Below, one piece after another: positions 16,950 to 30,995 of a DNA stretch of 64,000 bases. Below the pieces are notes generated by a model that saw only the letters and a list, made by a program, of their open reading frames with translations, was not told the origin of the DNA and did no database searches. Numbering within the stretch: position 1 is the stretch's first letter; each line of letters opens with the position of its first letter. The position numbers and the translations under genes were made by a program. Origin of the DNA: Qipengyuania sp. ABI-127-1 (GTDB taxonomy: Bacteria > Pseudomonadota > Alphaproteobacteria > Sphingomonadales > Sphingomonadaceae); contig JALJCR010000001.1 in the NCBI GenBank assembly GCA_022953095.1, forward strand, positions 248,001-312,000, in the 5' to 3' direction.

Positions 16950-16970
16950 CAGAGAGTCCTTGTCGGGTGC

Positions 16971-17077
16971 GGGTTGGACCTCCGTCCAACCCTTGCTGTT
17001 CCGTCCCACTCCCCCTCCCAGCCAGCCACGGCACTATCCTGATTGGGTGGCCGGGAGGGGGAGTGGGACGGAACAGC
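16971..17077. repeat. Multi-hairpin intergenic repeat, copy A
   Basis: First hairpin: a perfect 8-bp stem GGGTTGGA / TCCAACCC around loop CCTCCG (16971-16992). After a short tag follows a long GC-rich inverted repeat (16995-17077) with arms of about 33 bases, including CCCACTCCCCCTCCC / GGGAGGGGGAGTGGG, and a loop starting ACGGCAC. The same design recurs at 27917-28049 and 29548-29680, and in part at 30906-30995. This copy lies between an acyl-CoA dehydrogenase gene and a CoA-transferase gene and lacks the third hairpin. Confidence 0.9.
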
Positions 17078-17097
17078 CGAGCCGTCAGGCGAGCAAA

Positions 17098-18282
17098 TCA
17101 TACCGTGTTCGCGTATTCACGCAGCATATGCTTGGCGATCTGGAGCTGGAGGATCTGCGTCGTGCCTTCGTAGATGCGATAAATCCGCGCATCGCGGAAG
17201 AAGCGCTCGGCATCGTATTCGGCGAGATAGCCCGCGCCGCCATATATCTGCACCACCCGGTCGACCACGCGGCCGCACATTTCGGAGGCGAAAACCTTGA
17301 AAGCGGCGGCGTGCTTGACCGTATTCTCGCCGCGATCGACCCGCGCGGTGACATCGGCCATCATTGCCTCGGCGGCGTAGATTTCGGTCCAGCTTTCGCT
17401 GAGCATCTGCTGGATCAGCTGGAAATTGGCGATCGGTTCGCCGAAGGCCTGCCGCTCGTTCGCATATTTGATCGCCGAATCGAGCGCGCGGCGGGCATAG
17501 CCGGTGCTGGCCGCGCCGACCGAAATGCGTCCATTGTCGAGGCTCATCATGGCGAAACGGAAGCCCTTGCCGGTCTCGCCGCCCAGCAGCGCTTCGCCCG
17601 GCACATGCACATCGTCGAGCATGATGTCGGAGATATGGCTGCCCGACTGGCCCATTTTCTCGTCCGGGCTGCCGGTGGAGACGCCCGGCGTGTCCATCGG
17701 TACGATGAAGGCGCTGACATGCGCGTTCTTGGGCAGCGCGTCCTTTTCGGTGCGTGCCATGATCAGGCCGACCTCGGCATGCGGCGCGTTGGTGATGTAG
17801 CGCTTGGTCCCGTTGAGGATCCAGCCATTACCATCCGGATCGGGCCTGGCGGTGGTCGCCATGGCGGCGCTGTCACTACCCGAACCGGGCTCGGTCAGGC
17901 CGAAACAGGCGATCGCGCCTGCCGCGATCCGCGGCCACCATTCGGCCTTCTGCGCATCGGTGCCGCCGTTCTTGATGGCCGAATTGAACATGCCGACATT
18001 GATCGAGAAAATCGAACGATAGGCGGGCGCCGCATAGGCCATCGTCTTCACGACCTTGGCATATTGCGTTGTGTTCAGCCCCGCGCCGCCGAAATCCTCC
18101 GGAACCGTCAGGCCGAACAGGCCCATCTCCTTCATCTCGGCGACGATCTCGTCAGGGATCTTGTCATCGGCGATAACTCGCTTTTCCGCCGGGATCAGTC
18201 GTTCGCGGACATAGCGTTCGAGCTGTTCGAGGAACTGGTCGAAGGTTTCGGCGTCCATGCCGGGGTTTGCGAGTTCGCTCAT
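17098..18282 (-). CDS. Acyl-CoA dehydrogenase
   Basis: 394 residues with the full family fold. FGLTEPGSGSD and KRYITNAPHAE are the FAD and substrate-pocket signatures, QAFGEPIANFQLIQ follows, and YEGTTQI near the C-terminus places the catalytic base at Glu372. The enzyme oxidises an acyl-CoA to a 2-enoyl-CoA with FAD, passing electrons to electron transfer flavoprotein. The start overlaps the stop of a small lipoprotein gene by four bases (ATGA). Downstream on the same strand are the CoA transferase, thiolase and dehydratase genes, together a possible complete beta-oxidation set lacking a hydroxyacyl-CoA dehydrogenase. Confidence 0.92.
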   Translation of the reverse strand: MSELANPGMDAETFDQFLEQLERYVRERLIPAEKRVIADDKIPDEIVAEMKEMGLFGLTVPEDFGGAGLNTTQYAKVVKTMAYAAPAYRSIFSINVGMFNSAIKNGGTDAQKAEWWPRIAAGAIACFGLTEPGSGSDSAAMATTARPDPDGNGWILNGTKRYITNAPHAEVGLIMARTEKDALPKNAHVSAFIVPMDTPGVSTGSPDEKMGQSGSHISDIMLDDVHVPGEALLGGETGKGFRFAMMSLDNGRISVGAASTGYARRALDSAIKYANERQAFGEPIANFQLIQQMLSESWTEIYAAEAMMADVTARVDRGENTVKHAAAFKVFASEMCGRVVDRVVQIYGGAGYLAEYDAERFFRDARIYRIYEGTTQILQLQIAKHMLREYANTV

Positions 18283-18548
18283 CGGGGAAGCTCCATTCGA
18301 GCCGGCCCGCCCGATTCGCGCGGCGCCGGGAGGGTCTGCCCGGTGTCCGCGCGGGACTCGCCCGCGCCGTCGTCGCCTTCGGGCCGCAAGACGTCGTCGG
18401 GCAGGCGACGCTGTTCGATCATCTCGGCTGCATCGTCGAGCGCCTTGGCCTCACTGGGCGAAATGGCTTCGACAGGTTCCTCCTCCTCGTAACCGGAGCA
18501 GGCGGACAGCGCGGAAAGCGCGACGATACAGAGCGTGAATCGGATCAT
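18279..18548 (-). CDS. Small lipoprotein coupled to acyl-CoA dehydrogenase
   Basis: 89 residues: MIRFTLCIVALSALSACSGY, with a lipobox of the LSAC type (lipidated Cys17), then an EEEEPVE run and a Pro/Arg-rich tail. No recognised domain is present. The last four bases overlap the acyl-CoA dehydrogenase start, so the two are probably translationally coupled although one product should be exported and the other cytoplasmic. The final 20 or so residues are probably constrained by the following gene's ribosome-binding region. Confidence 0.7.
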   Translation of the reverse strand: MIRFTLCIVALSALSACSGYEEEEPVEAISPSEAKALDDAAEMIEQRRLPDDVLRPEGDDGAGESRADTGQTLPAPRESGGPARMELPR

Positions 18549-18638
18549 GCGGTGAAAGCTAGGCGCTCTCGAGCAGCGTGCAAAGGACGCTACGGCGGCG
18601 CGAGGGTGCGAGCGGGCCGAAGCCCGCCCGCCCTTCGA

Positions 18639-18935
18639 TCAGTTGCCGGTGTCTTCGGCCATGGCATCCATGGCGGCGGCAGCCGTGTCGGCGGCATTAT
18701 CGCCAGCTTCCTGGATCTGCGCCTCTTCGCTGGGCGACATGTCTTCGCGGGTCGGCGCAGCCTCATCGACATTGGCCGCGGGATCTTCGACCGGCTGTTC
18801 ATCGATGTCGGCCAGGGCTTCGTCCGCGGCGATTTCGACGGTGTCGGCTTCCGCTTCGGTGGATGCGTCTTCGGTGCTGCCGCAGGCGGCGAGCGCGACG
18901 GTGGCGGCAGCGGTCAGGGCAAATCGGAACTTCAT
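18639..18935 (-). CDS. Acidic lipoprotein, unknown function
   Basis: 98 residues from the ATG at 18935, preceded by GGAGAG. MKFRFALTAAATVALAACGS carries a clear lipobox (LAAC, lipidated Cys18). The mature part is highly acidic and alanine-rich (EAEADTVEIAADEALADID, later EDMSPSEEAQIQEAGDNAAD). No domain is recognised. It resembles the lipoprotein at 11540-11797 in composition rather than in alignable sequence. It lies 90 bp upstream of the next lipoprotein gene on the same strand and may share its transcript. The 119-bp gap before recQ holds the divergent promoters. Confidence 0.75.
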   Translation of the reverse strand: MKFRFALTAAATVALAACGSTEDASTEAEADTVEIAADEALADIDEQPVEDPAANVDEAAPTREDMSPSEEAQIQEAGDNAADTAAAAMDAMAEDTGN

Positions 18936-19054
18936 GGGCTTCTCTCCAAGCTGAATTGACGGTGCGGGGGTAAAGCGTAAGCGCGGGCCACTCGGCAAGG
19001 GGAAAATCGCCCGGCTATGGTTGCGCGGGCGCGGCTGTCTGGCATCAGGCGTGC

Positions 19055-20824
19055 ATGAGCGGAAATGCAGGCATACTCCAGGCCCTCAAGGACACTTTCG
19101 GTTTCGATGCCTTTCGCGGGCGTCAGGAAGAGGTTGTCGCACGGGTGCTGGCGGGCGAATCGACGCTGGCGGTGATGCCGACAGGTGCCGGCAAGTCGCT
19201 CACCTACCAATTGCCGGCCGTCCTGCTGGAGGGGACGTGCGTGGTGATAAGCCCGCTGATCGCCCTGATGCACGACCAGCTCAGAAGCGCACGGGCAAAC
19301 GGCATTCGCGCGGCAACGCTGACCAGCGCCGATGCCGATTGGCGCGAAACGCAGGATGCCTTCCGTGCTGGCAAGCTCGACCTGCTCTATGTCGCGCCCG
19401 AGCGAGCCAGCCAACCAGCTTTTCGCGAATTCCTGGCGGCTTCGCCCCTGTGTCTGTTCGCCATCGACGAGGCGCATTGCGTATCCGAATGGGGGCATGA
19501 TTTTCGTCCCGACTACCGCATGCTGCGGGGGCTGATGGACGCTTTCCCGCAAGTGCCTCGCCTCGCGCTGACCGCGACCGCAGACAATCAGACGCGCGCC
19601 GATGTGATGGCGCAGCTGGGCATTGCAGATACCGGGCTGGTGCTGGCCGGATTCGACCGGCCAAATATCCGCTACGCGATTCGTCATCGCGACAATCCGG
19701 TGCGCCAACTGACCGAGCTGATGGCGAACGAGCCGGGTCCGGGGATCGTTTATGCGCAAACACGGCGCAAGGTGGAGGACCTCGCCCACAAGCTCGCCGA
19801 TGCAACCGGGCGTCTCGTACTACCCTATCATGCCGGGCTCGATGCGCAGGTACGGGCGGACAACCAGGCGGCCTTCGTCGCCAGCGAGGATGTGGTGATC
19901 GTCGCCACGGTCGCGTTCGGCATGGGGATCGACAAACCCGACGTGCGGTTCGTGGCGCATGTCGGCGTGCCCAAGTCGATCGAGGCCTATTACCAGGAAA
20001 CCGGGCGCGCCGGGCGCGACGGCGATCCTTCGCAGGCGGTCATGTTCTGGGGCGCGGGCGATTTCGCGACTGCGCGGCAGCGGCTGGCGGAGGTGGACGA
20101 GGCGCGGCGCAATGCCGAACGCGCCCGGCTTGATGCACTGGCCGGACTGGTCGAAACTGCCGAATGCCGCCGTGCGGTGCTATTGAGGCATTTCGGTGAA
20201 GACCCGCCCTCGCGCTGCGCCAATTGCGACAATTGTCTCGAACCCGCGAGCGTCACCGACGTTACGCAGCTTGCGCGCAAACTGCTCTCCGCGGTTTACC
20301 GGACCGGACAGAGCTTCGGCATGGGACACTTGCAGAAGGTGCTCACCGGCAACGAAGACGAGCGCGTGCGCCAACGCGGGCACGACCGGCTGAGCGTGTT
20401 CGGCATCGTCGAGCGCGAGGAGGCACGCCTGCTCCAGCCGCTGTCGCGGGCCTTGCAGGCGCGCGGCGATCTTGTCGCGACCGAACATGGCGGGCTGGCG
20501 TTGGGCGGTGCGGCCCGTGCGATCCTCAAGGGCGATAGTCCGGTGGAGATCGTGGTCCCCCCCAGGAGGGCGCGCAGACGAAGGGCCGACGCGACACCCA
20601 ATCCGGTTGGGGACCCGCTGTTCGAAGCGCTGCGGGCCTTGCGCAAGGAGCTGGCCGAGGAAGCCCAGGTCCCGCCCTATGTCGTCTTCCACGATTCCAC
20701 TCTGCGCGAGATGACCTCCGCGCGTCCCGAAACGCTGGCGCAACTGGGCCGGTTGCCCGGCATTGGGGCCAAGAAACTCGAAGCATATGGAGAGCAGTTT
20801 CTGCGTGCCATCCAGGACCATTGA
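19055..20824 (+). CDS. recQ: ATP-dependent DNA helicase RecQ
   Basis: 589 residues. The helicase core has MPTGAGKSLT (Walker A, 41-50), DEAH (138-141), a RecA-like second domain with IVATVAFGMGIDKPDVRF, and QETGRAGRDG (motif VI). Zinc-binding cysteines occur in AECRRAVLL and SRCANCDNCLEP. A winged-helix RQC domain follows, and an HRDC-like domain ends the protein (LAQLGRLPGIGAKKLEAYGE). RecQ unwinds DNA 3' to 5' in recombination and replication-fork repair. The stop lies only 15 bp before the 30-bp palindrome controlling the next operon. Confidence 0.97.
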   Translation: MSGNAGILQALKDTFGFDAFRGRQEEVVARVLAGESTLAVMPTGAGKSLTYQLPAVLLEGTCVVISPLIALMHDQLRSARANGIRAATLTSADADWRETQDAFRAGKLDLLYVAPERASQPAFREFLAASPLCLFAIDEAHCVSEWGHDFRPDYRMLRGLMDAFPQVPRLALTATADNQTRADVMAQLGIADTGLVLAGFDRPNIRYAIRHRDNPVRQLTELMANEPGPGIVYAQTRRKVEDLAHKLADATGRLVLPYHAGLDAQVRADNQAAFVASEDVVIVATVAFGMGIDKPDVRFVAHVGVPKSIEAYYQETGRAGRDGDPSQAVMFWGAGDFATARQRLAEVDEARRNAERARLDALAGLVETAECRRAVLLRHFGEDPPSRCANCDNCLEPASVTDVTQLARKLLSAVYRTGQSFGMGHLQKVLTGNEDERVRQRGHDRLSVFGIVEREEARLLQPLSRALQARGDLVATEHGGLALGGAARAILKGDSPVEIVVPPRRARRRRADATPNPVGDPLFEALRALRKELAEEAQVPPYVVFHDSTLREMTSARPETLAQLGRLPGIGAKKLEAYGEQFLRAIQDH

Positions 20825-20838
20825 CTCGTTTCGCCACT

Positions 20839-20868
20839 CGATATAAATATGATATCATAATTATATCG
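20839..20868. promoter_or_regulatory. 30-bp AT-rich palindromic operator upstream of the SPFH operon
   Basis: A dyad with 14 of 15 base pairs matched: outer arms CGATATAA and TTATATCG, and centre TATGATATCATA. It is strikingly AT-rich against a GC-rich background and ends immediately before the GGAAGGAG ribosome-binding site of the SPFH gene. It therefore overlaps the likely promoter or transcript start. The bound regulator is unknown; the ribbon-helix-helix protein encoded at 21826-22020 is one candidate. Confidence 0.75.
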
Positions 20869-20883
20869 GAAGGAGCGTTGCCC

Positions 20884-21795
20884 ATGTCGGTGGAAATGAA
20901 GGGAATGAAGACCAGTACCGAACGAACCGGATCGAGTTTCAGCGGGTATCCCATACTCGCGCTGATCCTGGTCCTGCTGGTGCTGGTGACGTGGAACCTG
21001 TCCGGCAATCTGCCGCCGGATGGTGCGACCAAGGGGGAGAAACTGGCTTTCATCGGCCTGCTCGTCACGCCGCTCATCGTCCTCGGCTTTCTGGCCGCCG
21101 GGTTTTTCATGATCCAGCCCAACCAGGCGGCGGTGATCACGCTGTTCGGCGAATATCGCGGGACCGAACGGCGCGAAGGGCTGCGCTGGGTGTGGCCGTG
21201 GATGGGCAAAAACAAGATTTCGGTGCGCGCGCACAATATCCATTCCGAACGGGTGAAGATCAACGATCTGCGCGGCAATCCAATCGAAATTGCCTGCAAC
21301 GTGGTGTGGCGCGTAGCCGATACCGCCCAGGCGAGCTTCGATGTCGACGACTACAAGGAGTTCGTGAACATCCAGATCGAAGCCGGACTGCGCACCGTCG
21401 GTTCGCGCCATCCCTATGACGATTTCGAGGGCGAGGAGGTCACGCTGCGCGGCGGTGCGGATGTCATCAATCGCGAATTGCTCGAGGAACTCAACGACCG
21501 GCTCAAGGTTGCGGGTATCGTGGTCGACGAAGCGGGCCTCACACATCTGGCCTATGCCAGCGAGATCGCCAGCGCCATGCTCAAGCGCCAGCAGGCCGAT
21601 GCGATCATCGCGGCGCGCGCGAAAATCGTTCTCGGCGCGGTGGGCATGGTGGAAGATGCGCTGACCAAGCTCGCTCAGGACAATATCGTGGAGCTCGACG
21701 ACGAGCGCCGTGCAGCAATGGTTTCCAACCTGATGGTCGTGCTGTGCGGCGAGAAAGACGCGCATCCGGTGGTCAATGCCGGATCGCTCTACTAG
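20884..21795 (+). CDS. SPFH (band 7) domain membrane protein
   Basis: 303 residues; the start at 20884 follows GGAAGGAG. Two hydrophobic helices (about 22-39 and 54-77) precede the band 7 domain, which opens [40 protein letters not shown] and a long helical region with [19 protein letters not shown] follow, as in stomatin/flotillin-type scaffolds. Such proteins oligomerise in membranes and organise microdomains or protease complexes. It is first in a four-gene operon with an Arc-like DNA-binding protein, a hydrolase and a small membrane protein. The AT-rich palindrome at its promoter suggests induction by a specific signal. Confidence 0.88.
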
Positions 21796-21825
21796 GCGCT
21801 GGTTGCGACGGGATATTGACGCGAG

Positions 21826-22020
21826 ATGTCACGGAAAAAGGCCTTTGCCCTGCGTTTGGATCCGGCAGTCCATGCCGCGATCGAGCGCCTGGCTGCGGCC
21901 GAATTGCGCAGCGCCAATGCGCAGATCGAGATGTTGCTGCGCGAGGCGCTGAACGAACGCGGGATTACAGTACCCATATCGAAGCCGCCCGCACGCGGCC
22001 GACCGAGGAAGGAGCCGTAA
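21826..22020 (+). CDS. Arc-family ribbon-helix-helix protein
   Basis: 64 residues: MSRKKAFALRLDPAVHAAIE, then RLAAAELRSANAQIEMLLREAL. This is the ribbon-helix-helix pattern (KAFALRL strand, two helices, SANAQIEMLL) of Arc/CopG-type DNA-binding proteins. The C-terminal tail is basic and Pro-rich (KPPARGRPRKEP). It is the second gene of the SPFH operon, and its stop is two bases before the hydrolase start. It may autoregulate the operon through the upstream palindrome; alternatively it is an antitoxin-like protein with no partner toxin visible. Confidence 0.85.
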   Translation: MSRKKAFALRLDPAVHAAIERLAAAELRSANAQIEMLLREALNERGITVPISKPPARGRPRKEP

Positions 22021-22021
22021 T

Positions 22022-22993
22022 ATGCGCTTTTCCATACTACTCGCCGCAGTCGGCCTTGTGACAGCCGCACCGCTCATGGCTGTCCCTGAACCGGTTTCCC
22101 TGACCGCAGAGGGACCGCGAGGCGATCTCGCCGGCACGCTGATTGCACCTGCCGAGGGGCGGCCTGTGGTCCTCATCCTTCCCGGATCAGGACCCACCGA
22201 TCGCGATGGCAACAATCCGATGGGCGTCACCGCCGCCCCCTACCGCCTGCTCGCAGAAGCGTTGGCCGGGCGCGGCATCGGCACGGTCCGTATCGACAAG
22301 CGCGGCATGTTTGCCAGCAAGGCGGCAGTCACCGATGCCAATGCGGTCACGGTGTCCGACTATGTCGCCGATACCCGAAACTGGGTGGACGCGGCCCGCA
22401 CCGCCAGCGGGACAGACTGCATCTGGCTTTTGGGTCATAGCGAGGGCGGCCTGGTGGCGCTTGCCGCAGCCAAGCGGGTTGACCATCTGTGCGGCCTTAT
22501 ACTGGTGGCAACGCCTGGGCGGCCGCTAGGCAGCATCTTGCGCGAGCAATTGAGCGCCAATCCGGCCAACGCGCCGATCCTCGATCAGGCGGAAACCGCC
22601 ATCACCGCGCTTGAAGCGGGCGAGCGGGTCGACGTCGCGAAATTCCATCCCGCTTTGCAGGGGCTGTTCGCACCGGCGGTGCAGGGGTTCATGATCGATC
22701 TGATGGCACAGGACCCGGCAGCTATGGCCGATACGATCGAGCTTCCGATGCTCATCGTCCAGGGCGGCACCGATCTTCAGGTGGGTACAGAGGACGCCAA
22801 TGCCCTGGTCGCCGCAGCCCCCGCCGCCGAGTATCTGGCAATTCCCGCAATGAATCACGTGTTGAAAGATATCGCTGATGGCGACGCTGCGGCCAATCGA
22901 GCCAGCTATGCCGATCCATCGCTTCCGGTGTCGCCAGCGCTGGTCGATGGTATCGAAGCATTCACAACCGAGTTCAGGAAAGCGATTCGATGA
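22022..22993 (+). CDS. Exported alpha/beta hydrolase
   Basis: 323 residues with an N-terminal signal peptide (cleavage probably near residue 20, after AAPLMA). The alpha/beta hydrolase fold shows VVLILPGSGPTDRDGNN (oxyanion region), LLGHSEGG with nucleophile Ser140, a later acidic position in IVQGGTDLQVG and catalytic His in AMNHVLKD. It is therefore likely a periplasmic or secreted esterase/peptidase-like enzyme. It is tightly coupled to the preceding RHH gene and overlaps the next gene by four bases (ATGA), so it belongs to the SPFH operon. Confidence 0.85.
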   Translation: MRFSILLAAVGLVTAAPLMAVPEPVSLTAEGPRGDLAGTLIAPAEGRPVVLILPGSGPTDRDGNNPMGVTAAPYRLLAEALAGRGIGTVRIDKRGMFASKAAVTDANAVTVSDYVADTRNWVDAARTASGTDCIWLLGHSEGGLVALAAAKRVDHLCGLILVATPGRPLGSILREQLSANPANAPILDQAETAITALEAGERVDVAKFHPALQGLFAPAVQGFMIDLMAQDPAAMADTIELPMLIVQGGTDLQVGTEDANALVAAAPAAEYLAIPAMNHVLKDIADGDAAANRASYADPSLPVSPALVDGIEAFTTEFRKAIR

Positions 22994-23253
22994 CCGAGAG
23001 GAAAGACGACGTCTGGTTCGAACCCAAACGGTACGGTTACGGAGCGGGCATGCCGGTGTCGTGGCAAGGCTGGGTTCTGATTATCGGCTACGTGCTTCTC
23101 ATCGTTTTCGGCGTCCTCTTGGCGCCGTGGGAAGAGGATGTATGGCTTACCGTTTTCCTGATCCTCATCGTTCCCGTGACTGCGGTGCTGCTCTATATTT
23201 CCGCCATCAAGACACGCGGCGGCTGGCGCTGGCGCTGGGGTGAAGACGATTGA
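22990..23253 (+). CDS. Small two-helix membrane protein in SPFH operon
   Basis: 87 residues with two hydrophobic helices (WVLIIGYVLLIVFGVLLAP and VWLTVFLILIVPVTAVLLYI) and a Trp/Arg-rich C-terminus (TRGGWRWRWGEDD). No family is recognised. The ATG overlaps the hydrolase stop. As the last gene of the SPFH operon it might be the membrane partner of the SPFH scaffold, but this is inference from position only. Confidence 0.75.
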   Translation: MTERKDDVWFEPKRYGYGAGMPVSWQGWVLIIGYVLLIVFGVLLAPWEEDVWLTVFLILIVPVTAVLLYISAIKTRGGWRWRWGEDD

Positions 23254-23314
23254 CGTGGTCGGCCACAGGGCCAAGGTTATTCAGTTGTTAACCATAAGGG
23301 GCTAGGCAACGATT

Positions 23315-24301
23315 ATGGTTTCGCCCTTCGCCTCCTCCGCTTCGCGCATGCCCCGCTGGCTCTTCGCTGCCGTCGCAGCCGTGGCGATAAGCGCGATTCC
23401 GCTCGCCGCCGTGCTGGCGCAAGGCCCATCGACGGCCAGCTTCACCGTTGCCGAAACGGGCCGCGGCTATGCGTCGCTGCAGGCCGCGGTCGATGCCATC
23501 GGCAGTGGCGAGGGAACTGTGGTGATCGCCCCGGGCAACTGGCGCGAATGCGCAGTGCAGCGCGAAGGCGTGGTGCATTTCCGCGCCGCGCAGCCGGGCA
23601 GCGCGCTGTTGGGCGGCAAGGCCTGCGAAGGAAAGGCGGCGCTGGTCCTGCGCGGACGTGGTGCCAGCGTCGACGGAATCGTTTTCGCCGATCTCGCCGT
23701 CGAGGATGGTAACGGGGCGGGCATCCGTCTCGAAAAAGGCCCCTTGCGCGTATCGCAAAGCTGGTTCCGCGACAGCCAGCAGGGCATTCTGACGACCAAT
23801 GGTGAGAACAGCGAGCTGGTGGTCGACAAGTCTACATTCACGCGCCTGGGCACTTGCGAATATTCGGGCGGTTGCGCGCATTCGATCTACGCCGGAGATT
23901 ACGGGCGCGTCGTTGTTACCCGTAGCCGTTTCGAGCAGGGCACGGGCGGGCATTATCTCAAGTCGCGCGCCGCGCACAATGTGATAGAGGATTCGAGCTT
24001 TGACGATGCCAATGGCCGCAGCACCAATTATCTGATCGATCTGCCAAATGGCGGTACAGGCAGTATTCGCGGTAACTGGTTCGTTCAGGGACGCGATAAG
24101 GAAAACTGGTCGACAATGATCGCCATCGGCGCCGAGGGCGCCCATTACAGTTCCGATGGCCTGGTGATTGCGGACAATGAGGCGCGTTTGGTCCCCGGCC
24201 TGTCTCGCAGCCCGGCCTTCGTGGCCGACTGGACCGGCGATGCGCTGGTTATGCAGAACAACACGCTCGGCTCCGGCATCCGGCGGTTGGAGTTGCGCTG
24301 A
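23315..24301 (+). CDS. Exported right-handed beta-helix repeat protein
   Basis: 328 residues with a signal peptide (hydrophobic residues about 15-35, AVLAQ near the cleavage site). The body has repeated short strands typical of parallel beta-helices: SLQAAVDAIGSGEGTVVIAP, GIRLEKGPLRVSQSWFRDSQ, GILTTNGENSELVVDKSTF and VVTRSRFEQGTGGHYLKSRA. Related proteins include polysaccharide lyases and surface-glycan binding proteins, but no catalytic motif can be pointed to. It stands alone between the SPFH operon and a zinc-finger gene. The 61-bp upstream gap includes AT-rich AGTTGTTAACCATAA. Confidence 0.8.
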   Translation: MVSPFASSASRMPRWLFAAVAAVAISAIPLAAVLAQGPSTASFTVAETGRGYASLQAAVDAIGSGEGTVVIAPGNWRECAVQREGVVHFRAAQPGSALLGGKACEGKAALVLRGRGASVDGIVFADLAVEDGNGAGIRLEKGPLRVSQSWFRDSQQGILTTNGENSELVVDKSTFTRLGTCEYSGGCAHSIYAGDYGRVVVTRSRFEQGTGGHYLKSRAAHNVIEDSSFDDANGRSTNYLIDLPNGGTGSIRGNWFVQGRDKENWSTMIAIGAEGAHYSSDGLVIADNEARLVPGLSRSPAFVADWTGDALVMQNNTLGSGIRRLELR

Positions 24302-24347
24302 GGAAACATGCCGTCCCTCACCCGTTTATCGGGCGAAGGAGCAGGCA

Positions 24348-24611: not shown

Positions 24612-24637
24612 CGCGCGATCGCGTCCACGCATCGGCC

Positions 24638-25477
24638 ATGACATCCCCTTTCATCTGGCTCCAGCATCTCCTGCCTCACCATGCGGTTTCGCGCATGGCA
24701 GGTAAACTCGCCTCGAGCGAAGTTCCATGGCTGCGCGACCGACTGATCCGCCGCTTTATCGTCGCCTATGATGTCGACATGAGCGAGGCGGCGCGCGGTG
24801 TGGGCGAGTTCACAAGTTTCAACGATTTCTTCACGCGCGAACTCAAGCCGGGCGCCCGTCCGCTGGCCGACGCAAGCCAATATGTCCTGAGCCCAGCCGA
24901 CGGCGCGGTCAGCCAGATCGGGCGGATCGAGGAAGGGCGCATCTTCCAGGCCAAGGGCCGTCACTTCACCGCTGCGCAGCTTCTTGGCGGCGACAAGCAG
25001 GCGGCGGCGCGGTTCGACGGCGGCCAATTCGCCACGATCTATCTGAGCCCACGCGATTACCACCGCGTGCACATGCCCGCAGCCGGAACGCTGAAATCCG
25101 CAACCTACGTCCCGGGCGAGCTGTTTTCGGTGAATCAGGTGACGGCCGAGAACGTCGATGGTCTTTTCGCCCGCAACGAGCGACTCGCCTGCCAGTTCGC
25201 AGGGCCGGACGGGCTCTTCGCCAGCGTCATGGTGGGGGCGATGATCGTGGCGGGGATCGAGACCGTATGGTCGGGCCTTGTCGAAACGCACGCCGCGAAG
25301 CGGGTGCGCGAGGAGTTCGGCGATGAACATACCTTCGCGGCGGGCGACGAGATGGGGCGCTTCATTCTCGGATCGACCGTGGTGTTGCTGTTCGAACCGG
25401 GTAAGGTCGAATGGGACGCGCGGCTGAAGGCGGGCGCGGCCGTGCGCATGGGGCAGGCCATCGGGCGGCGGCTCTGA
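24638..25477 (+). CDS. psd: Phosphatidylserine decarboxylase
   Basis: 279 residues. The self-cleavage site is FILGSTVVLLF: cleavage at Gly245-Ser246 would create the pyruvoyl group on the small alpha subunit. FTSFNDFFTRELKPGARPL, LSPADGAVSQIG and YLSPRDYHRVHMP are the family hallmarks. The enzyme makes phosphatidylethanolamine at the inner membrane. The start at 24638 follows the DksA-like gene closely. The 3' end faces a convergent GNAT gene nine bases away with no obvious terminator. Confidence 0.95.
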   Translation: MTSPFIWLQHLLPHHAVSRMAGKLASSEVPWLRDRLIRRFIVAYDVDMSEAARGVGEFTSFNDFFTRELKPGARPLADASQYVLSPADGAVSQIGRIEEGRIFQAKGRHFTAAQLLGGDKQAAARFDGGQFATIYLSPRDYHRVHMPAAGTLKSATYVPGELFSVNQVTAENVDGLFARNERLACQFAGPDGLFASVMVGAMIVAGIETVWSGLVETHAAKRVREEFGDEHTFAAGDEMGRFILGSTVVLLFEPGKVEWDARLKAGAAVRMGQAIGRRL

Positions 25478-25485
25478 GGGGAGGC

Positions 25486-25986
25486 TCAGCCGAAGGCGGG
25501 CGCGTAGCGCACATCCCCGCTCGGTGCATCGCCATCGACCACAAGCCGCTGAAAGTATCTGGGGGGAGGCCCGGGATATCGCAGGGCTGGATCGTGTTCG
25601 AAACCGAAGCGCGAATAATATGCAGGATCGCCCAGCAGCACGATGCCCCGCGCGCCCCGCATGCGCATGTCCGCGATCGCGCGCTGCATCAGCCGCGAAC
25701 CGATCCCGCGGCGCTGCAGCGACGGCAATATCGCGATCGGGCCGAGACCGTACCAGTCGGGTGAGCCATCGGAAATCTGCACTGGCGAAACGGCAACATG
25801 ACCAACGATCCGCTCGCCATCCTCGGCTACCAAGGAGAGCGTCAGATCGCCGTCCAATCTGAGCCGCTCGATGATACGCACTTCGCTGCCGTCGCTATGC
25901 GGCGCATCTGCAAACGCCGCCTGTGCGACCACGCCGATTTCCGCATGGTCGCGCGGCTCTTCGGGGCGGATCGTGATTGCGCTCAC
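25486..25986 (-). CDS. GNAT family N-acetyltransferase
   Basis: 166 residues resembling the YhbS branch. MSAITIRPEEPRDHAEIGVV begins the fold, the acetyl-CoA loop is LQRRGIGSRLMQRAI, and YYSRFGFEHDPALRYPGPPP is typical of this subfamily. Substrate unknown. Its start overlaps the ribA stop by four bases (ATGA), so it is translated as the last gene of an xth/ribA/GNAT run. Confidence 0.85.
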   Translation of the reverse strand: MSAITIRPEEPRDHAEIGVVAQAAFADAPHSDGSEVRIIERLRLDGDLTLSLVAEDGERIVGHVAVSPVQISDGSPDWYGLGPIAILPSLQRRGIGSRLMQRAIADMRMRGARGIVLLGDPAYYSRFGFEHDPALRYPGPPPRYFQRLVVDGDAPSGDVRYAPAFG

Positions 25987-26951
25987 AGCAAATGCCCCGA
26001 CCTGTCGCGTTTGGTAGCGAGGTATCGGCTATTATGCGGATTATCGGGCAGTGCATGCGGGACCCGTTCGGCAATGCGCACGCCCTGTGCGGCGAGCGCA
26101 TCGACCTTGGCCGGATTGTTGGTCATCAACCGGATCGCCTTCACCCCGAGCAGGTCGAGCATTCGCGCCGCGGTGGGAAAATCGCGCGCCTCGTCGGGCA
26201 GGCCGAGACGGGTGTTGGCATCGACGGTGTCGAAACCCTGGTCCTGCAGGCGATAGGCGCGCAATTTGTTGACGAGGCCGATGCCGCGCCCTTCCTGCCG
26301 CATGTAGAGCAGCACGCCCCAGCCGCCCTTCTTCGCCTCGTGCGCCATCGCGTGGAGCGCGGCATCGAGCTGCGGGCCGCAATCGCATTTGAGGCTGCCG
26401 AGGATATCGCCGGTAAGGCATTCGGAATGCAGTCGCACCAGCGGCGCGCTCTCGGCTGTCTGTTCGCCGATAATGAGCGCGACGTGCTCGCGCGTATCGT
26501 CGGGGCTGCGGAAGGCGACGATACGCGCATCCTCTGCCGCTGCGACAGGCAACCTTGCGCGCGAGGCGATCTGCAGGCGCGTGGCATCGGCAAAGGCGGC
26601 GACGTCGGTCGCGCTGAGCGGGACGGCCTCAGCCGCTCCTTGCGGGTCGACGAGAAATGCGGGCAACACCCCGGCCATCCGCGCCAGTTCGAGCGCGGCG
26701 CGCGCCTGGTCCTCCCAGTCGAGAGGCAGCGCCTTGAACGGCCCTTTGAGCGGGTTGGCCATGTCCAGCGCGGGATCGGCCACGGCGAGGGCGGCGGACA
26801 GGTCGAAGGGGTCGGCGGCACGCATCAGTACCGGCTGGCGCGGCGCGGCGGCCTCGATCTGGTTGATAAGCTTGAGCGTGGCCGCTCGCGTGGCGGAAAT
26901 GAGCATCGCCTCGCCCGACACATCGCCGAAAGCCGTCTCGACCGGTTGCAA
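25983..26951 (-). CDS. ribA: GTP cyclohydrolase II
   Basis: 322 residues from a TTG start at 26951. The catalytic C-terminal domain has HSECLTGDILGSLKCDCGPQ (zinc cysteines), MRQEGRGIGLVNKLRAY and MTNNPAKVDALAAQG, all diagnostic of RibA. The first 120 residues are a family-typical extension with weak conservation. The enzyme opens the GTP ring, the first step of riboflavin synthesis. The reading frame upstream of the TTG continues with AVDALRHGWPLAIEGAPL, which looks homologous, yet no ATG, GTG or TTG precedes it near the xth stop. The true start is therefore uncertain. Confidence 0.9.
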   Translation of the reverse strand: MQPVETAFGDVSGEAMLISATRAATLKLINQIEAAAPRQPVLMRAADPFDLSAALAVADPALDMANPLKGPFKALPLDWEDQARAALELARMAGVLPAFLVDPQGAAEAVPLSATDVAAFADATRLQIASRARLPVAAAEDARIVAFRSPDDTREHVALIIGEQTAESAPLVRLHSECLTGDILGSLKCDCGPQLDAALHAMAHEAKKGGWGVLLYMRQEGRGIGLVNKLRAYRLQDQGFDTVDANTRLGLPDEARDFPTAARMLDLLGVKAIRLMTNNPAKVDALAAQGVRIAERVPHALPDNPHNSRYLATKRDRSGHLL

Positions 26952-27049
26952 TAGGGGTGCGCCTTCAATGGCGAGCGGCCACCCATGACGCAGCGCATCG
27001 ACTGCCTGCGCGGCGCGGCGGGAGGGGCTTGGAGGGGAGGCGAACTCGC

Positions 27050-27841
27050 TCAGAGCGTGAACTCCGTCACCAGCGGCACATGGTCGGATGGTTTTTCCCA
27101 GTCGCGTGCATATTCATGGACCGAATGGCGCTGCGCCTGTTTCGCAAGGTCCTCGCTCGCCCACATATGGTCGAGCCGGCGCCCGCGATCGTTGGCCTTC
27201 CAATCCTTCGCGCGATAGCTCCACCAGCTATAATAGCGCTCGGGTGCCTTGATGTGCTCGCGCCCGATATCGGCCCAGCCATGCGCATCCATGAAGCGCT
27301 GGAGGCTCTCGACCTCGATTGGCGTGTGGCTGACGACCTTGAGGAGCTGTTTGTGGCTCCACACGTCGCTTTCGAGCGGGGCGATGTTGAAATCGCCGAC
27401 GATCAGCGTCGGGCGATCGATCGCATCGGCCCAGCGGGTCATGCGCTCGAGGAAGTCGAGCTTCTGCCCAAATTTGGGATTGACCTCGCGATCGGGTTCG
27501 TCGCCGCCGGCGGGCACATAGACGTTCTCGACGATCATCCCTTGGTGATCGGTCAGCTCGACGCCGACATGGCGCGCCTCGCCATTGTCCTGCCAGTCAT
27601 GGCGGCTGAATTCCCTTATCGGTGTTTTCGCGATCGTCGCGACACCGTGATAGCCCTTCTGCCCGTGCACCGCGAAATGCTCGTAGCCGAGTTCGCGGAA
27701 CGCCTCGTAGGGGAACTGGTGCTCCTGGCACTTGATTTCCTGCAGGCACAGAACGTCGGGCGACTGCTCCTTTATGAAGCGTTCGACGATCGGCATGCGC
27801 AGGCGGACGGAATTGATATTCCAGGTAGCGATAGAAACCAT
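27050..27841 (-). CDS. xth: Exodeoxyribonuclease III
   Basis: 263 residues. MVSIATWNINSVRLRMPIVE opens the endonuclease/exonuclease/phosphatase fold, CLQEIKC carries the metal-binding Glu, VGDFNIAP the catalytic Asp/Asn, RLDHMW is the second motif and SDHVPLVTEF the final Asp-His. It processes abasic sites and 3' blocks in base-excision repair. It is the first gene of the leftward xth/ribA/GNAT run. The 290-bp gap upstream contains repeat copy B and the alkaline phosphatase promoter region. Confidence 0.95.
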   Translation of the reverse strand: MVSIATWNINSVRLRMPIVERFIKEQSPDVLCLQEIKCQEHQFPYEAFRELGYEHFAVHGQKGYHGVATIAKTPIREFSRHDWQDNGEARHVGVELTDHQGMIVENVYVPAGGDEPDREVNPKFGQKLDFLERMTRWADAIDRPTLIVGDFNIAPLESDVWSHKQLLKVVSHTPIEVESLQRFMDAHGWADIGREHIKAPERYYSWWSYRAKDWKANDRGRRLDHMWASEDLAKQAQRHSVHEYARDWEKPSDHVPLVTEFTL

Positions 27842-27916
27842 CAGGGCGGGTTAGGCGAGGGCCATCGTTGCTGCAAGCGTCGGAGATCGGTCATGCGGGA
27901 GTCGTTAGTTTCGTGC

Positions 27917-28049
27917 GCCTTCGCCATCCGCCGAAGGCTTGCGGCTGTTCCGTCCCGCTCCCCCGCCCGGCCACCCACGGCACGATACTGGTTGGGTGGC
28001 CGGGCGGGGGAGCGGGACGGAACAGCCACGGGAAGCGCGGATGCGCTTC
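27917..28049. repeat. Multi-hairpin intergenic repeat, copy B
   Basis: Three consecutive hairpins. The first is GCCTTCG / CGAAGGC (27917-27938). After the tag CTTGCG comes the long inverted repeat with perfect 33-base arms (27944-28026; GCTGTTCCGTCCCGCTCC at the left end, its complement at the right) and a 17-base loop starting ACGGCAC. The third is GAAGCG / CGCTTC (28032-28049). It lies between divergent xth and the alkaline phosphatase gene. Copy C carries the same three parts in reverse orientation. Confidence 0.93.
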
Positions 28050-28131
28050 ACGCACGCCACTGGAGACCGTCGCGCTTTCGTCATGCCAAGCGGTGATATA
28101 GAGCGCGCGTTCAAGATCACGGAGTTTTGAA

Positions 28132-29526
28132 ATGACCATTCGTCCGCTTTTCCTTGCCACCGCAGCTGCGCTCGTACTGGGAGGGTGCACGACCACCGCC
28201 GCGCAGGAGGCGCCGCAGTTTGCGGCTGAAGCTCCAGCCGAAAAGCGGGCCAAGAACGTCATCCTCTTCATCGGCGACGGGATGGGGGTTTCGACCGTCA
28301 CCGCCGCGCGCATCTATGCCGGCCAGAAGCTCGGCCAGACCGGCGAGGAATATGTTCTGCCGTTTGAGACCTTCGATAATGTGGCCTTGGTGAAGACCTA
28401 CAATATCAATGCACAGGTCCCCGACAGCGCGGGCACGGCCAGCGCGATGCATACAGGTGTGAAAACCGACATCGGCGTGCTCGGCTACGGCCCCGGCGTG
28501 ACGGAGGGCGATTGCGCTTCGGGAGCGGGGCATGCGGCGCCCATGCTCGGCGAAGAGGTCAAGGCGAGGGGGCTTGCGCTGGGTATCGTCAGCACCGCGC
28601 GGCTGACGCACGCTACGCCTGCATCGGTCTATGCGCGCAGCGTGACGCGCGACTGGGAGGCCGATTCCTGGGTCCCCGAAGACCAGCGCGGGCAGGGCTG
28701 TATCGATATCGCGCGGCAGCTGGTTGAGGCGCCTTTCGATGTCGCGCTGGGCGGCGGCACCGTCGCCTTCTACGGCAAGGACAAAGGCGGGCGCAGGCTG
28801 GACGATGCCGCCGACCTCCCGGGCGAATGGGCGGCTGCGACCGGCGGTACCTACGCGACCACGCTCCAGGATATGGCCGCGGCTCCGGACGACAAGCCCC
28901 TGCTCGGCCTCTTTTCCCTCAGCCATATGAGCTACATGGTCGATCGCGAGGTCGACAGCAGCGAACCCACGCTCACCTCGATGACCGCCACGGCGATCCA
29001 GCGCCTGTCGAGCGATCCGCAGGGCTACTACCTGATGGTTGAAAGCGGGCGGATCGATCACGGCCACCACGAGGGGCGCGCGGGCTATGCGCTGGAAGAA
29101 GCGGTCGAATTCGCGCGCGCGATCCAGTGGGCGATCGACAACACCGATCCCGAAGAGACTCTGATCCTCGTCACCGCCGACCACAGTCACGTTTTCACGA
29201 TCGCGGGCTATCCCAAACGCGGCAATCCGATCCTCGGCCTCGTGTCGAACCCTCGCGATGAAGGTCCCTCGCTGGCCGAGGACGGCAAGCCCTACACCAC
29301 GCTCGGCTATGCCAACGGAATGGGCGCTTTCGAGGGCGAACGACCGATGCCCGAAACCGGCGTGAACGCCCGCCAGCAGGCTGCGATCCCTACCAAATCC
29401 GAAACTCACGCTGGCGAGGATGTGGCGCTCTATGCCCAGGGACCCGGCGCCGAGAACGTGCGCGGGGTGATGGAACAGAACCTGATCTATAATGTGATCA
29501 GGAAGGCCTTCGGCTGGGAAGAGTAA
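28132..29526 (+). CDS. Alkaline phosphatase, lipoprotein
   Basis: 464 residues. The lipobox LVLGGC places the lipidated Cys at residue 19, so the enzyme is probably anchored in the outer membrane or periplasm. IGDGMG holds metal ligand Asp49, PDSAGTASAM holds nucleophile Ser99, ESGRIDHGHHEGR gives metal-binding Asp/His and TADHSHVFT the last ligands, so the PhoA-type active site is complete. It releases phosphate from phosphomonoesters. No Pho box is obvious in the 80 bp upstream. The gene stands alone, bracketed by inverted copies B and C of the multi-hairpin repeat. Confidence 0.93.
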   Translation: MTIRPLFLATAAALVLGGCTTTAAQEAPQFAAEAPAEKRAKNVILFIGDGMGVSTVTAARIYAGQKLGQTGEEYVLPFETFDNVALVKTYNINAQVPDSAGTASAMHTGVKTDIGVLGYGPGVTEGDCASGAGHAAPMLGEEVKARGLALGIVSTARLTHATPASVYARSVTRDWEADSWVPEDQRGQGCIDIARQLVEAPFDVALGGGTVAFYGKDKGGRRLDDAADLPGEWAAATGGTYATTLQDMAAAPDDKPLLGLFSLSHMSYMVDREVDSSEPTLTSMTATAIQRLSSDPQGYYLMVESGRIDHGHHEGRAGYALEEAVEFARAIQWAIDNTDPEETLILVTADHSHVFTIAGYPKRGNPILGLVSNPRDEGPSLAEDGKPYTTLGYANGMGAFEGERPMPETGVNARQQAAIPTKSETHAGEDVALYAQGPGAENVRGVMEQNLIYNVIRKAFGWEE

Positions 29527-29547
29527 GCGGAGTCCTTGCTGCGTGCA

Positions 29548-29680
29548 GGAAGCGCATCCGCGCTTCCCTTGCGGCACCTGCCCACTCCCCCACCCGGCCA
29601 CCCACGGCACGGTATTTTATGGGTGGCCGGGTGGGGGAGTGGGCAGGTGCGGCCGCAAGCCTTCGACGGAGGTCGAAGGC
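29548..29680. repeat. Multi-hairpin intergenic repeat, copy C (inverted relative to B)
   Basis: Read left to right: GGAAGCG / CGCTTCC hairpin (29548-29567), tag CTTGCGGC, the long inverted repeat (29568-29659; core CCCACTCCCCCACCC / GGGTGGGGGAGTGGG), then a hairpin GCCTTCGA / TCGAAGGC around CGGAGG (29659-29680). On the minus strand the order and loop (CCTCCG) match copies A and B. It starts 22 bp after the alkaline phosphatase stop and could act as its 3' end structure. The 384-bp gene-free stretch 29527-29910 holds this repeat, a terminator and a candidate small RNA with its promoter. Confidence 0.93.
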
Positions 29681-29694
29681 GCACCCGAACAATA

Positions 29695-29821
29695 ACACAA
29701 AAAACCCCCGTGCCGGGGGCATTGGCACGGGGGTTTCCTGTGAGCGTTCGTCACGCTTGGAACGAGATGAACCAGGTCGAGGGGGTCAACAGGGGGGAAA
29801 CCCGCCTCGTGTCGTCTCGTG
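29695..29821 (-). ncRNA. Candidate small RNA of about 127 nt
   Basis: A minus-strand promoter (-35 at 29851-29856, -10 at 29828-29833) places a start near 29821. The transcript would end at the strong terminator, giving roughly 127 nt with no convincing ORF or ribosome-binding site. The 5' half contains C-rich stretches (GGTTTCCCCCCTGTTGACCC) that could pair with ribosome-binding sites, loosely held between CGAGG and CCTCG. This is a structural inference; I do not recognise a named RNA family. A 5' leader or processed 3' fragment of a longer transcript is the alternative. Confidence 0.5.
29697..29736 (-). terminator. Strong intrinsic terminator
   Basis: A 13-bp stem AAACCCCCGTGCC / GGCACGGGGGTTT with a nine-base loop (29702-29736). 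The minus strand ends GGGGGTTTTTT, an ideal U-tract, so it mainly ends leftward transcription, most likely of the candidate small RNA. Rightward it has only TTT and may still help end the phosphatase transcript. Confidence 0.9.
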
Positions 29822-29827
29822 ATTTGG

Positions 29828-29856
29828 AGATTATGCCCGGGGCGATTGCTGTTCAA
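29828..29856 (-). promoter_or_regulatory. Sigma70-type promoter for the candidate small RNA
   Basis: On the minus strand TTGAAC (29856-29851) and TAATCT (29833-29828) are exactly 17 bases apart, close to the TTGACA/TATAAT consensus. It lies downstream of lolA and points away from it into the gene-free region. Confidence 0.55.
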
Positions 29857-29910
29857 TGAACGGTCCGAAGCGGGATATCCCGTAGGGCGCACCGCTCACC
29901 GCCAAGGCGT

Positions 29911-30573
29911 TCATCCCGGGCGACGGGACGATCGCCGCGGATCGCGAAAGGTAAAGGCGCTGTCGGCAACTGCCACGCCATAATGCTGGTTCGCCAGCCT
30001 TACAGTGGTCCGGTGATTCTGCGAATCGAGCGCCACCCAATGGGTCAGGCGCAGACCGCCAGGGGCCGAAGCGTCGCGGGCGAAAATCAGGGTTATGACC
30101 CCGAATTCGGGGCGCTTGGTATCGCGCACTTCCACGCTGACGACATCGGGGTGGTTGGTGGGGACCAGTTTGCCGTATCGCTTCACGTCGCGGCTGGGAT
30201 CGAGCAGCGCGCCCAATGGCGAATTCTTGATCGGCCAGCGCTGGACCTGATTGACCTCGTAGTCGACCATATACATCGACTTGCCGTTCGAGACGACGAG
30301 CATCGGCACGCCCTTCTCGTACTGGAAGCGGATCTTGCCGGGGCGTTTCAGCGTCATCACGCCGCGCACGGTCTGCCCGCTGCGGTCGGTCTGGACGAAG
30401 TCCGCCTTCATGGTGGAAATACCGCGCAGCGCGGCGACTGCCCGGTCGAGGTCGCCCTCGGCGGCGACCACCGGGGCGGGCGCGAGGATGGCGGAAACGG
30501 GAAGCGCCGCAGCCAGCGATAAAGCCAGCGCGGCGCGGATCGGTTTGTTCGATTTCGAAGACAAGGTGCTCAT
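29911..30573 (-). CDS. lolA: LolA-family outer-membrane lipoprotein carrier protein
   Basis: 220 residues from the ATG at 30573, which follows AGGAGC at good spacing; an upstream in-frame start at 30609 is less likely. The signal peptide spans about residues 12-38 (ALALSLAAALPVSAILAPAP). The mature part has ISTMKADFVQTDRSGQTVRG, LKRPGKIRFQYEKGVPMLVV and ALLDPSRDV, matching LolA. It carries lipoproteins through the periplasm to the outer membrane, consistent with the many lipoproteins encoded here. It lies 75 bp behind rpmG; a TGAACC direct repeat and an inverted repeat in that gap may be regulatory. Confidence 0.87.
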   Translation of the reverse strand: MSTLSSKSNKPIRAALALSLAAALPVSAILAPAPVVAAEGDLDRAVAALRGISTMKADFVQTDRSGQTVRGVMTLKRPGKIRFQYEKGVPMLVVSNGKSMYMVDYEVNQVQRWPIKNSPLGALLDPSRDVKRYGKLVPTNHPDVVSVEVRDTKRPEFGVITLIFARDASAPGGLRLTHWVALDSQNHRTTVRLANQHYGVAVADSAFTFRDPRRSSRRPG

Positions 30574-30598
30574 GCTCCTGCGATTAGGGTCGGAGCAT

Positions 30599-30636
30599 TG
30601 AACCATCACTGAACCCGGCTCGTTCCCGCGGTTCAG
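30599..30636. promoter_or_regulatory. TGAACC direct repeat and dyad upstream of lolA
   Basis: TGAACC occurs at 30599-30604 and 30610-30615, exactly 11 bp apart, which also forms GAAC-N7-GAAC. The second copy is one arm of CTGAACC / GGTTCAG (30609-30636). The spacing suits an OmpR-type response regulator or, less likely, LexA. The dyad could also be a hairpin at the rpmG 3' end, but no U-tract follows. Confidence 0.35.
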
Positions 30637-30648
30637 CTTGGCAGAGCA

Positions 30649-30816
30649 TTACTTGATCTTGGCTTCCTTGAACTCGACATGCTTGCGCACGACGGGATCG
30701 TACTTGCGGAAGGTGAACTTTTCCGTGTGGTTACGCGGATTCTTCTTGGTCACGTAATAGAAGCCCGTGTCTGCGGTCGAGACGAGCTTGATCTTGACGG
30801 TTGCGGGCTTCGCCAT
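30649..30816 (-). CDS. rpmG: 50S ribosomal protein L33
   Basis: 55 residues: [20 protein letters not shown], then [20 protein letters not shown] and [15 protein letters not shown]. This is the standard proteobacterial L33 sequence and length without the zinc-binding cysteines. An AGGAAC site precedes the ATG. It is part of the large ribosomal subunit near the E site. lolA follows on the same strand. Confidence 0.97.
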
Positions 30817-30905
30817 GGCGTGTTCCTAAAGATCTTTCTGGATGGCCATTGAGGCCGAAAAAATAAGGGCGGCGTGTTCCTTGCGCTTGGTCAGACCGGT
30901 TCCGC

Positions 30906-30995
30906 CCCACTCCCCCTCCCGGCCACCCATCAGCATACCCTAGTGGGTGGCCGGGAGGGGGAGTGGGCTGGTGCCGAAATCGTTTCCCAGAAACG
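30906..30995. repeat. Multi-hairpin intergenic repeat, copy D (partial)
   Basis: A 23-base inverted repeat core (30906-30967; CCCACTCCCCCTCCC / GGGAGGGGGAGTGGG, GGCCACCC / GGGTGGCC) with a diverged loop, followed by CGTTTC / GAAACG (30981-30995). A CTTGCG tag occurs on the left at 30880-30885 but the first hairpin is not convincing. It lies about 90 bp upstream of rpmG. The 345-bp gene-free stretch 30817-31161 holds this repeat and the different element at 31074-31159. Confidence 0.82.

Follow-up and report, generated by a model that had tools for sequence, protein, structure and literature searches.

The closest described counterparts of the element reported here are of several kinds. Bacterial interspersed mosaic elements (BIMEs) are bound by gyrase, IHF or Pol I, and small inversions in chloroplast genomes are linked to 3′ hairpins. 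Repetitive extragenic palindromes (REPs) and their doublets, the REPINs, which go with REP-associated tyrosine transposases (RAYTs), combine an inverted palindromic doublet, extragenic placement, compensatory changes and a possible clover fold, according to the available portions of two reports (PMC3116915, PMC2817692). The BoxC/TM_ECO triplex motif is described, in the available part of its report (PMC4666352), as intergenic hairpins with C-runs and G-runs that are patchily distributed between relatives. The traits named for REPs and for BoxC/TM_ECO recur in a family of multi-hairpin repeats, four copies of which lie in a 64,000-nt stretch of the Qipengyuania sp. ABI-127-1 genome (contig JALJCR010000001.1, positions 248,001 to 312,000; hereafter, the window). 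The family probably consists of dispersed composite extragenic palindromes that are built like BIMEs and REPINs, with a long stem that is rewritten by hairpin-templated DNA copying. Two features are new: at orthologous sites, the long hairpin often has its loop inverted while the outer hairpins keep their order, and the two outer hairpins of one element almost never belong to the same super-class.

When the window is scanned for perfect inverted repeats whose arms are at most about 60 nt apart, arms of 25 bp at position 16995, 34 bp at 27944, 31 bp at 29574 and 24 bp at 30906 stand out, whereas the other repeats detected have arms of 12–13 bp. All four copies listed in an earlier note on this sequence are thus found in place, by direct reading as well as by the scan (Table 1). 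In copies 2 and 3, and in most copies in related genomes, a small hairpin is followed by the long hairpin and by a second, inverted small hairpin. The small hairpins have 8–9 bp and loops such as ATCC or CTCC and are framed by GTGCG and CTTGC, whereas the full long hairpin has a 34-bp, GC-rich stem and a 15-nt loop; the outermost bases of the element, about GGAGTCTTTGTTGGGTGCG ... CGCACCCAACAAAGACTCC, are also able to pair. The multi-hairpin layout described in the earlier note holds for copies 1–3 inasmuch as three modules are present, but the right module of copy 1 is of a different type and folds weakly, and copy 4 is degenerate, without a proper left small hairpin and with an unrelated right one. 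In copy 1, mismatches break the inner stem, so that the scan reports a gap of 33 nt. The predicted folds of the four copies are exceptionally stable (z from -11.4 to -13.2 as RNA and from -10.2 to -13.6 as DNA), and none of the 200 dinucleotide shuffles folds as well.

The collected set consists of 171 copies in 74 ortholog groups, 44 of them with a single member. Orthologs were defined by matches of both flanks (up to 1.3 kb) on the expected sides, which gave 323 pairs; loops were compared in the 304 pairs whose loops are equally long and whose flanks are complete, and a match at 14 or more of 17 positions was considered strong. Where the loop match is strong and the outer hairpins are in the same order, the loop reads the same way in 70 pairs and is inverted in 27. 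When the outer hairpins are swapped, the loop is inverted together with them, so that the whole element is turned, in a single pair, and keeps its orientation in 13. The 63 strong matches without a clear outer order include 42 same and 21 inverted loops, and 130 pairs show weak matches. The inversions can be nearly exact: loci L100 and L120 have flanks with 94.5% identity, identical arms and a loop inverted at 16 of 17 positions, the loop of L104 is inverted with respect to L177 at 17 of 17, and that of window copy 2 with respect to its ortholog in genome G005 (L002/L274) at 16 of 17. By comparison, the match of a loop to its own reverse complement averages 4.5 of 17 positions and never exceeds 10. 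Both orientations are found in 18 of the 28 groups with at least two callable loops. The sequence ACGGCAC, with which the loop was said usually to start, serves as an orientation mark, and the loop itself comes in both orientations. The loops of the small hairpins read the same way in all 140 sides called (142 sides were uncalled). The inverted share is 10 of 37 at flank identity of 93% or more, 13 of 34 at 90–93%, 34 of 72 at 85–90% and 61 of 161 below 85%, as though saturation were nearly reached at about 10% divergence; these are not independent pairs, and among the 37 (and the 304) is one that consists of two neighbouring copies of the own genome that share flanks.

The classes of the outer hairpins were counted over 141 of the 171 elements, the set being made up of elements sufficiently far from a locus end and outside the other genera (L245–L271); 12 of these have no class on either side, and 86 have a class-A hairpin on both. 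The two hairpins belong to the same class in none of the 86 elements (12.7 expected) and to the same super-class in one (25.8 expected); counted by ortholog group, the latter figure is 1 of 28 against 8.5 expected (p 0.0002). At the site of the C5:138791 element, the orthologs (L025, L062, L092, L100, L120 and L056) carry in several species another outer hairpin, GGCGTCTATTCGCTCCCTTCGGTCGCTGCGCC, of type B, so that a site can have its own type of outer module.

Across 162 copies, the runs of C and G in the stem hardly vary, and the variable positions (5, 8, 13, 19, 21, 25, 26, 29, 30 and 32, counted from the loop) are mostly occupied by matched pairs; position 13, for example, is A:T in 97 copies, T:A in 56 and unpaired in 3. 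The proposal of the earlier note that the structure rather than the sequence is kept is accordingly half right, in that variation is found mainly in the bases between the runs. In an alignment of 16 copies of the own genome, 94.1% of the cells are paired, with a covariation score of 0.220 compared to 0.101 in shuffles (reached in 0 of 500). Among 45 pairs of orthologs with flank identity of 90% or more and the same loop orientation, 104 base pairs have changes on both sides and still pair, and 142 are changed in other ways. This amounts to double changes in 6.8% of the base pairs, whereas about 0.24% would be predicted if the two sides changed independently (one-sided changes, about 4.9% per base); part of the excess stems from entire modules having been replaced through exchange with other copies.

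A covariance model of the long hairpin built from the same 16 copies produces 38 matches in the own genome at E up to 0.01, that is, 19 sites each matched on both strands. Three of these (C6:14462, C3:270438 and C1:1452088; best E 1e-7 to 1.4e-9) are weak and decayed, and a pattern search adds a 20th, damaged copy at C6:3000; these four are not part of the alignment. The genome search suggested by the earlier note thus brought further copies to light. With 45 candidates scored per genome, 43 of 99 genomes, including the own one, gave matches; the genus accounts for 40 (of 60 genomes) and the rest of the order for 3 (of 39). Eight high-copy genomes, for which 150 candidates were scored, have 32–53 matches on both strands, or about 16–26 sites, and species of the genus range from 0 to about 26 copies each. 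The sequence of the stem is also encountered throughout the family and in some further families of Alphaproteobacteria, with matches family-wide in 84 of the 199 genomes, from 52 of 96 genera (E up to 1e-5), and in 17 of 289 genomes class-wide at 1e-7, namely, the own genome and 16 outside the family. In other genera and families (27 loci; 18 loci), most copies keep a core like CCCRCTCCCCCWCCCGGCC[AT]CCCA, and the outer hairpins differ. In named genomes, a pattern scan picked out 70 stretches, mostly from Qipengyuania and Erythrobacter but also from Parerythrobacter, Pontixanthobacter, Altererythrobacter and a few metagenome-assembled genomes filed as Erythrobacteraceae, Novosphingobium or Sphingomonadales; two plasmid records contain partial matches, with no annotated feature under the match.

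According to simple gene calls made for this analysis, tandem genes flank 93 of 162 elements, convergent genes 31 and divergent genes 29; another 8 are at the edge of a locus, and 1 falls within a predicted gene. In Qipengyuania and its relatives, the elements are usually located immediately downstream of a stop codon. Of the 155 facing stop codons, 80 are located 30–49 nt from the long hairpin, which brings the edge of the element near the stop codon, and the distances to start codons are broadly spread. With a random member taken from each ortholog group and an outer part of 36 nt assumed, the edge is within 12 nt of a stop codon in 40.8 of 58 groups (range 37–44), compared to 21.2 expected from even placement in the free spacer; with the member nearest to the stop codon, the count is 44 of 58 against 23.1 expected. 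Ten of the 72 groups for which the context could be called are flanked by divergent genes, copy 2 being a clear exception to the placement at stop codons.

The same site can be filled or empty in different species, which fits a mobile element. Among the 30 best-matching of the 60 genus genomes, site 1 is empty in 20 and filled in 10, own included, with the core deleted in one of the filled sites (G013). In the empty sites, the stop codon of the acyl-CoA dehydrogenase gene and the start codon of the CoA-transferase gene are a few nucleotides apart. At site 3, the element is bordered on one side by the stop codon of the alkaline phosphatase gene and on the other by a conserved terminator-like hairpin (with the T-run on the minus strand), which stays where the element is absent.

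The frequent inversion of the loop in place points to DNA copying, and not only selection, as the keeper of the matched arms. When the DNA is single-stranded, for example, at the replication fork, the long inverted repeat could fold, and DNA synthesis could then switch template between the arms of the folded hairpin. A template switch of this kind would copy one arm onto the other, so that pairing is kept, and two switches, or an exchange between the arms, would turn the loop round. Elements with matching outer hairpins would be lost because the palindrome would extend from 34 to about 60 bp per arm, which could account for the rule of unlike hairpins. We tentatively propose, as a possibility that falls somewhat short of probable, a hairpin that maintains itself: the near-perfect stem would be kept by template-switching DNA synthesis instead of selection on pairing, loop flips and arm copying would be frequent enough to occur within one culture, and the unlike outer hairpins would keep the palindrome within the tolerated length. 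By analogy with REP sequences, the element may serve as a barrier at the mRNA 3′ end.

Several points weigh against the view of the family as composite palindromes rewritten by DNA copying. The number of double-changed pairs in the 16-copy alignment does not exceed that in shuffles (9 compared to 7.5; reached in 115 of 500). Many ortholog pairs differ by whole-module replacement (62/304, scored as 'weak, neither'), so that exchange between copies also acts and could mimic matched changes in the arms, and the conservation of the C/G runs calls for an additional constraint. The inversions are observed between species only, in ortholog pairs that are non-independent and include the neighbouring copies of the own genome, and the orientation of the long loop relative to the upstream gene is not quite random (49 sense, 25 antisense and 6 unclear). 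The pairing of unlike outer hairpins has precedents. As for the suggested role, the 10 of 72 groups between divergent genes would not fit a function at the mRNA 3′ end, and the stop-codon count rests on the assumed 36-nt outer part. Moreover, bacterial inverted repeats as a whole are most frequent 50 to 80 bp downstream of stop codons, as stated in the available part of a survey (PMC13155455), so the position of the element alone is not special.

The earlier note had suggested REP-like or miniature inverted-repeat transposable element (MITE)-like elements or a family of RNA 3′-end structures; neither suggestion accounts for the loop inversion or for the rule of unlike hairpins. If the elements functioned in the transcript, as mRNA 3′-end stabilisers or terminators with pairing kept by selection, their location directly behind a stop codon in about 41 of 58 groups, the position of copy 3 and its orthologs between a stop codon and a terminator-like hairpin that persists without them and the high stability of the RNA fold would be accounted for. 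We nevertheless consider this possibility rather doubtful. In the copies read by eye, the GC-rich hairpin is followed not by the U-tract of an intrinsic terminator but by the outer hairpin and a CGCACCCAACAAAGACTCC-type sequence; some sites, such as copy 2, lie between divergent genes; and the loop is often inverted. Selection on the transcript should favour G-U pairs, but on the strand of the upstream gene, 80 elements contain 38 G-U, 25 A-C and 52 other mismatches, so that selection on RNA is not clearly indicated, and the lack of a clear G-U excess speaks against it. No Rfam family matches the window at the gathering score; all permissive-threshold matches on the elements fall below the gathering scores, mostly far below and to miRNA models, which are attracted by a long perfect hairpin. 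The other suggestion, a REPIN or MITE moved in trans by a RAYT or another hairpin-binding transposase, agrees with the presence or absence of the element between species, the patchy copy number and the inverted doublet build as in REPINs (PMC3116915, in the available part), and an insertion sequence that replaces inverted repeats is known, namely, IS1272 (PMC5678879). Palindromic inverted units, mosaic build and extragenic placement also agree with the REP-like part of the suggestion, but the RAYT-type transposase that it called for did not turn up. The own genome contains no Y1 transposase domain (Y1_Tnp, PF01797; other transposase families were not searched), which leaves the RAYT route without an enzyme there, and this domain is present in 5 of the 60 genus genomes, four of which have few or no copies; among the high-copy genomes, only G055 has it. 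Target-site duplications, sought by eye at sites 1–3, are not consistent, with none clear at site 1 and one possible 7-bp duplication at site 2. Thus, movement in trans appears possible but not probable.

The runs of C and G might instead be kept for formation of G-quadruplexes or triplexes, as proposed for BoxC/TM_ECO. All seven G-quadruplex motifs in the window coincide with arms of the element, and 158 of 171 3′ arms carry one, but first-order Markov sequences of the same make-up have a mean of 3.0 motifs and up to 7 in 60 trials, and the fixed stem positions include G/C bases outside G-triplets. Given this modest excess, G-quadruplexes were rejected as the sole reason for the runs. The pattern CCCTCNCCC-N3-6-GGGNGAGGG-N3-GGGNGAGGG is missing from the window and from all collected loci, so identity with BoxC/TM_ECO was rejected as well, and we regard conservation for such structures as unlikely. 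A site-specific inverton, a switch operated by a recombinase that turns the loop round between inverted sites, would produce frequent inversion in place bounded by inverted repeats. This is highly improbable given that the invertible part is about 15 nt, the arms vary between copies and about 20 copies are scattered in the genome; no recombinase domain was detected among the seven flanking window proteins scanned, and a 15-nt segment would be too short for recombinase synapsis. Least of all do we expect the inversions to be assembly artefacts of the 34-bp inverted repeat. Several genomes, with records titled in the NODE style, look like short-read assemblies, but the hairpin of about 83 bp is shorter than common reads, some inverted loops carry substitutions of their own, and among 55 pairs between genomes of at most seven contigs (counted for loci assigned to a genome handle, which leaves aside L069–L076 and the named records), 30 are same, 19 inverted and 6 unclear.

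If the hairpin indeed maintains itself through template switching, the compensatory changes usually taken to prove an RNA structure would be a side effect of DNA copying. Matched stem changes routinely count as evidence of a working RNA, and given that the inverted loops suggest common rewriting of hairpins at the DNA level, covariation alone could mislead. The family, which differs between close species at fixed sites, could further report on template switching in bacteria, and the rule of unlike hairpins bears on the length of palindrome that cells tolerate.

Table 1. Copies of the element in the window with their modules and flanking genes (Pfam names), and related forms elsewhere
Feature	Position	Strand	Remark
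Copy 1, whole element	16950..17097	.	Fills the space from acyl-CoA dehydrogenase stop codon to CoA-transferase start codon
Copy 1, flank: CoA-transferase gene	15711-16949	-	
Copy 1, flank: acyl-CoA dehydrogenase gene	17098-18282	-	
Copy 1, small hairpin	16971..16992	+	Nearest class F2
Copy 1, long hairpin	16995..17077	+	Inverted-repeat scan, covariance model, folding
Copy 1, alternative outer module	17078..17094	+	Type C, CGAGCCGTCAGGCGAGC; weak fold
Copy 2, whole element	27897..28068	.	Between divergent genes
Copy 2, flank: Exo_endo_phos family	27050-27841	-	
Copy 2, flank: alkaline phosphatase	28132-29526	+	
Copy 2, small hairpin 1	27917..27938	+	Class F1
Copy 2, long hairpin	27944..28026	+	34-bp arms, 15-nt loop; loop inverted in G005 ortholog
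Copy 2, small hairpin 2	28032..28049	+	Class F3, inverted
Copy 3, whole element	29527..29697	.	Immediately 3′ of alkaline phosphatase stop (TAA 29524-29526)
Copy 3, small hairpin 1	29548..29567	+	Class F3
Copy 3, long hairpin	29574..29650	+	31-bp arms, 15-nt loop
Copy 3, small hairpin 2	29659..29680	+	Class F1, inverted
Copy 4, degenerate element	30897..30995	.	Between ribosomal protein L33 gene and RF-1-domain gene
Copy 4, flank: ribosomal protein L33	30649-30816	-	
Copy 4, flank: RF-1-domain gene	31162-31566	-	
Copy 4, long hairpin core	30906..30967	+	24-bp arms
Copy 4, small hairpin	30979..30995	+	Outside classes F1-F3 (by eye)
Short forms (G000, own genome)	C1:438032-438101, C1:725362-725433, C5:188724-188793		Pattern search
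Half-unit loci	L083, L099, L101, L107, L108, L111, L114, L115; own L008, L010, L016		

Partial forms of the element are found as well. At three places in the own genome, two small hairpins, unlike by eye, lie 10–12 bp apart without a long hairpin. Half-units that consist of a small hairpin and one long arm, some of them decayed, occur in tandem beside full elements and also solo; several of the tandem ones end in a CCGGAGTCTTTGTTG-type sequence. A search of the own genome for the solo small-hairpin pattern gave 59 matches compared to 19 for the reversed pattern, so the matches at 2 mismatches are partly due to chance. In G055, the region C6:76396-77017 (L170, L174) contains weak Y1 transposase matches, one of them in an open frame of 240 aa. 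Beside copy 3, at about 29702-29876 of the window on the minus strand, there is a conserved small RNA-like gene that was found in 28 of the 29 loci searched. The stretch CCCCCCTGTTG and the hairpin GCGTGACGAACGC of this gene are both invariant, and it has a strong terminator. In its 21 aligned sequences, 9 of 32 predicted pairs show double changes, and it has no Rfam match at the gathering score.

The build and the setting of the element belong to the REP/BIME kind: palindromic units alternate in orientation, with linker motifs, and are extragenic, 1 of 162 elements being called within a predicted gene. The present family differs from BIMEs in the long hairpin, with its invertible loop, that every full element contains. 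Several features of REPs and REPINs are lacking, namely, the Y1 domain and the GT(A/G)G head next to the palindrome, in place of which the left units read GTGCG-hairpin-CTTGC; conversely, the 34-bp central stem sets the present family apart. In the available portions of the reports (PMC3116915, PMC2817692), REPs and REPINs usually exceed 100 copies per genome, although not strictly, compared to about 20 here, and the REPINs of P. fluorescens have matching 16-mer ends whereas the elements analysed here have unlike ends, although some E. coli REPs are dimorphic too. REPs have been counted in Erythrobacter cryptus, and no such element is named in the available part of that work (PMC12306157); a literature search by title or abstract, in a library outside which most subscription journals fall, returned no description of the family. 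The five inverted pairs of BoxC/TM_ECO all combine type A with type B, in line with the unlike rule; however, the motif is made of three blocks, CCCTCNCCC..GGGNGAGGG..GGGNGAGGG, instead of two arms, and the accessible part of its description finds no trend to a fixed distance from genes (PMC4666352). Loop inversion at hairpins is shared with the small inversions of chloroplasts, which concern organelle genomes and not a dispersed repeat family. A counterpart of the proposed mechanism comes from template-switch mutations in RNA hairpins, for which both matched stem changes and inverted loops are predicted. In the available part of that study (PMC8794818), inversion of the loop is rare, with 69 loop-only cases, typically of 4 nt, whereas in the family described here, the loops have 15 nt, and 18 of 28 groups contain both orientations.

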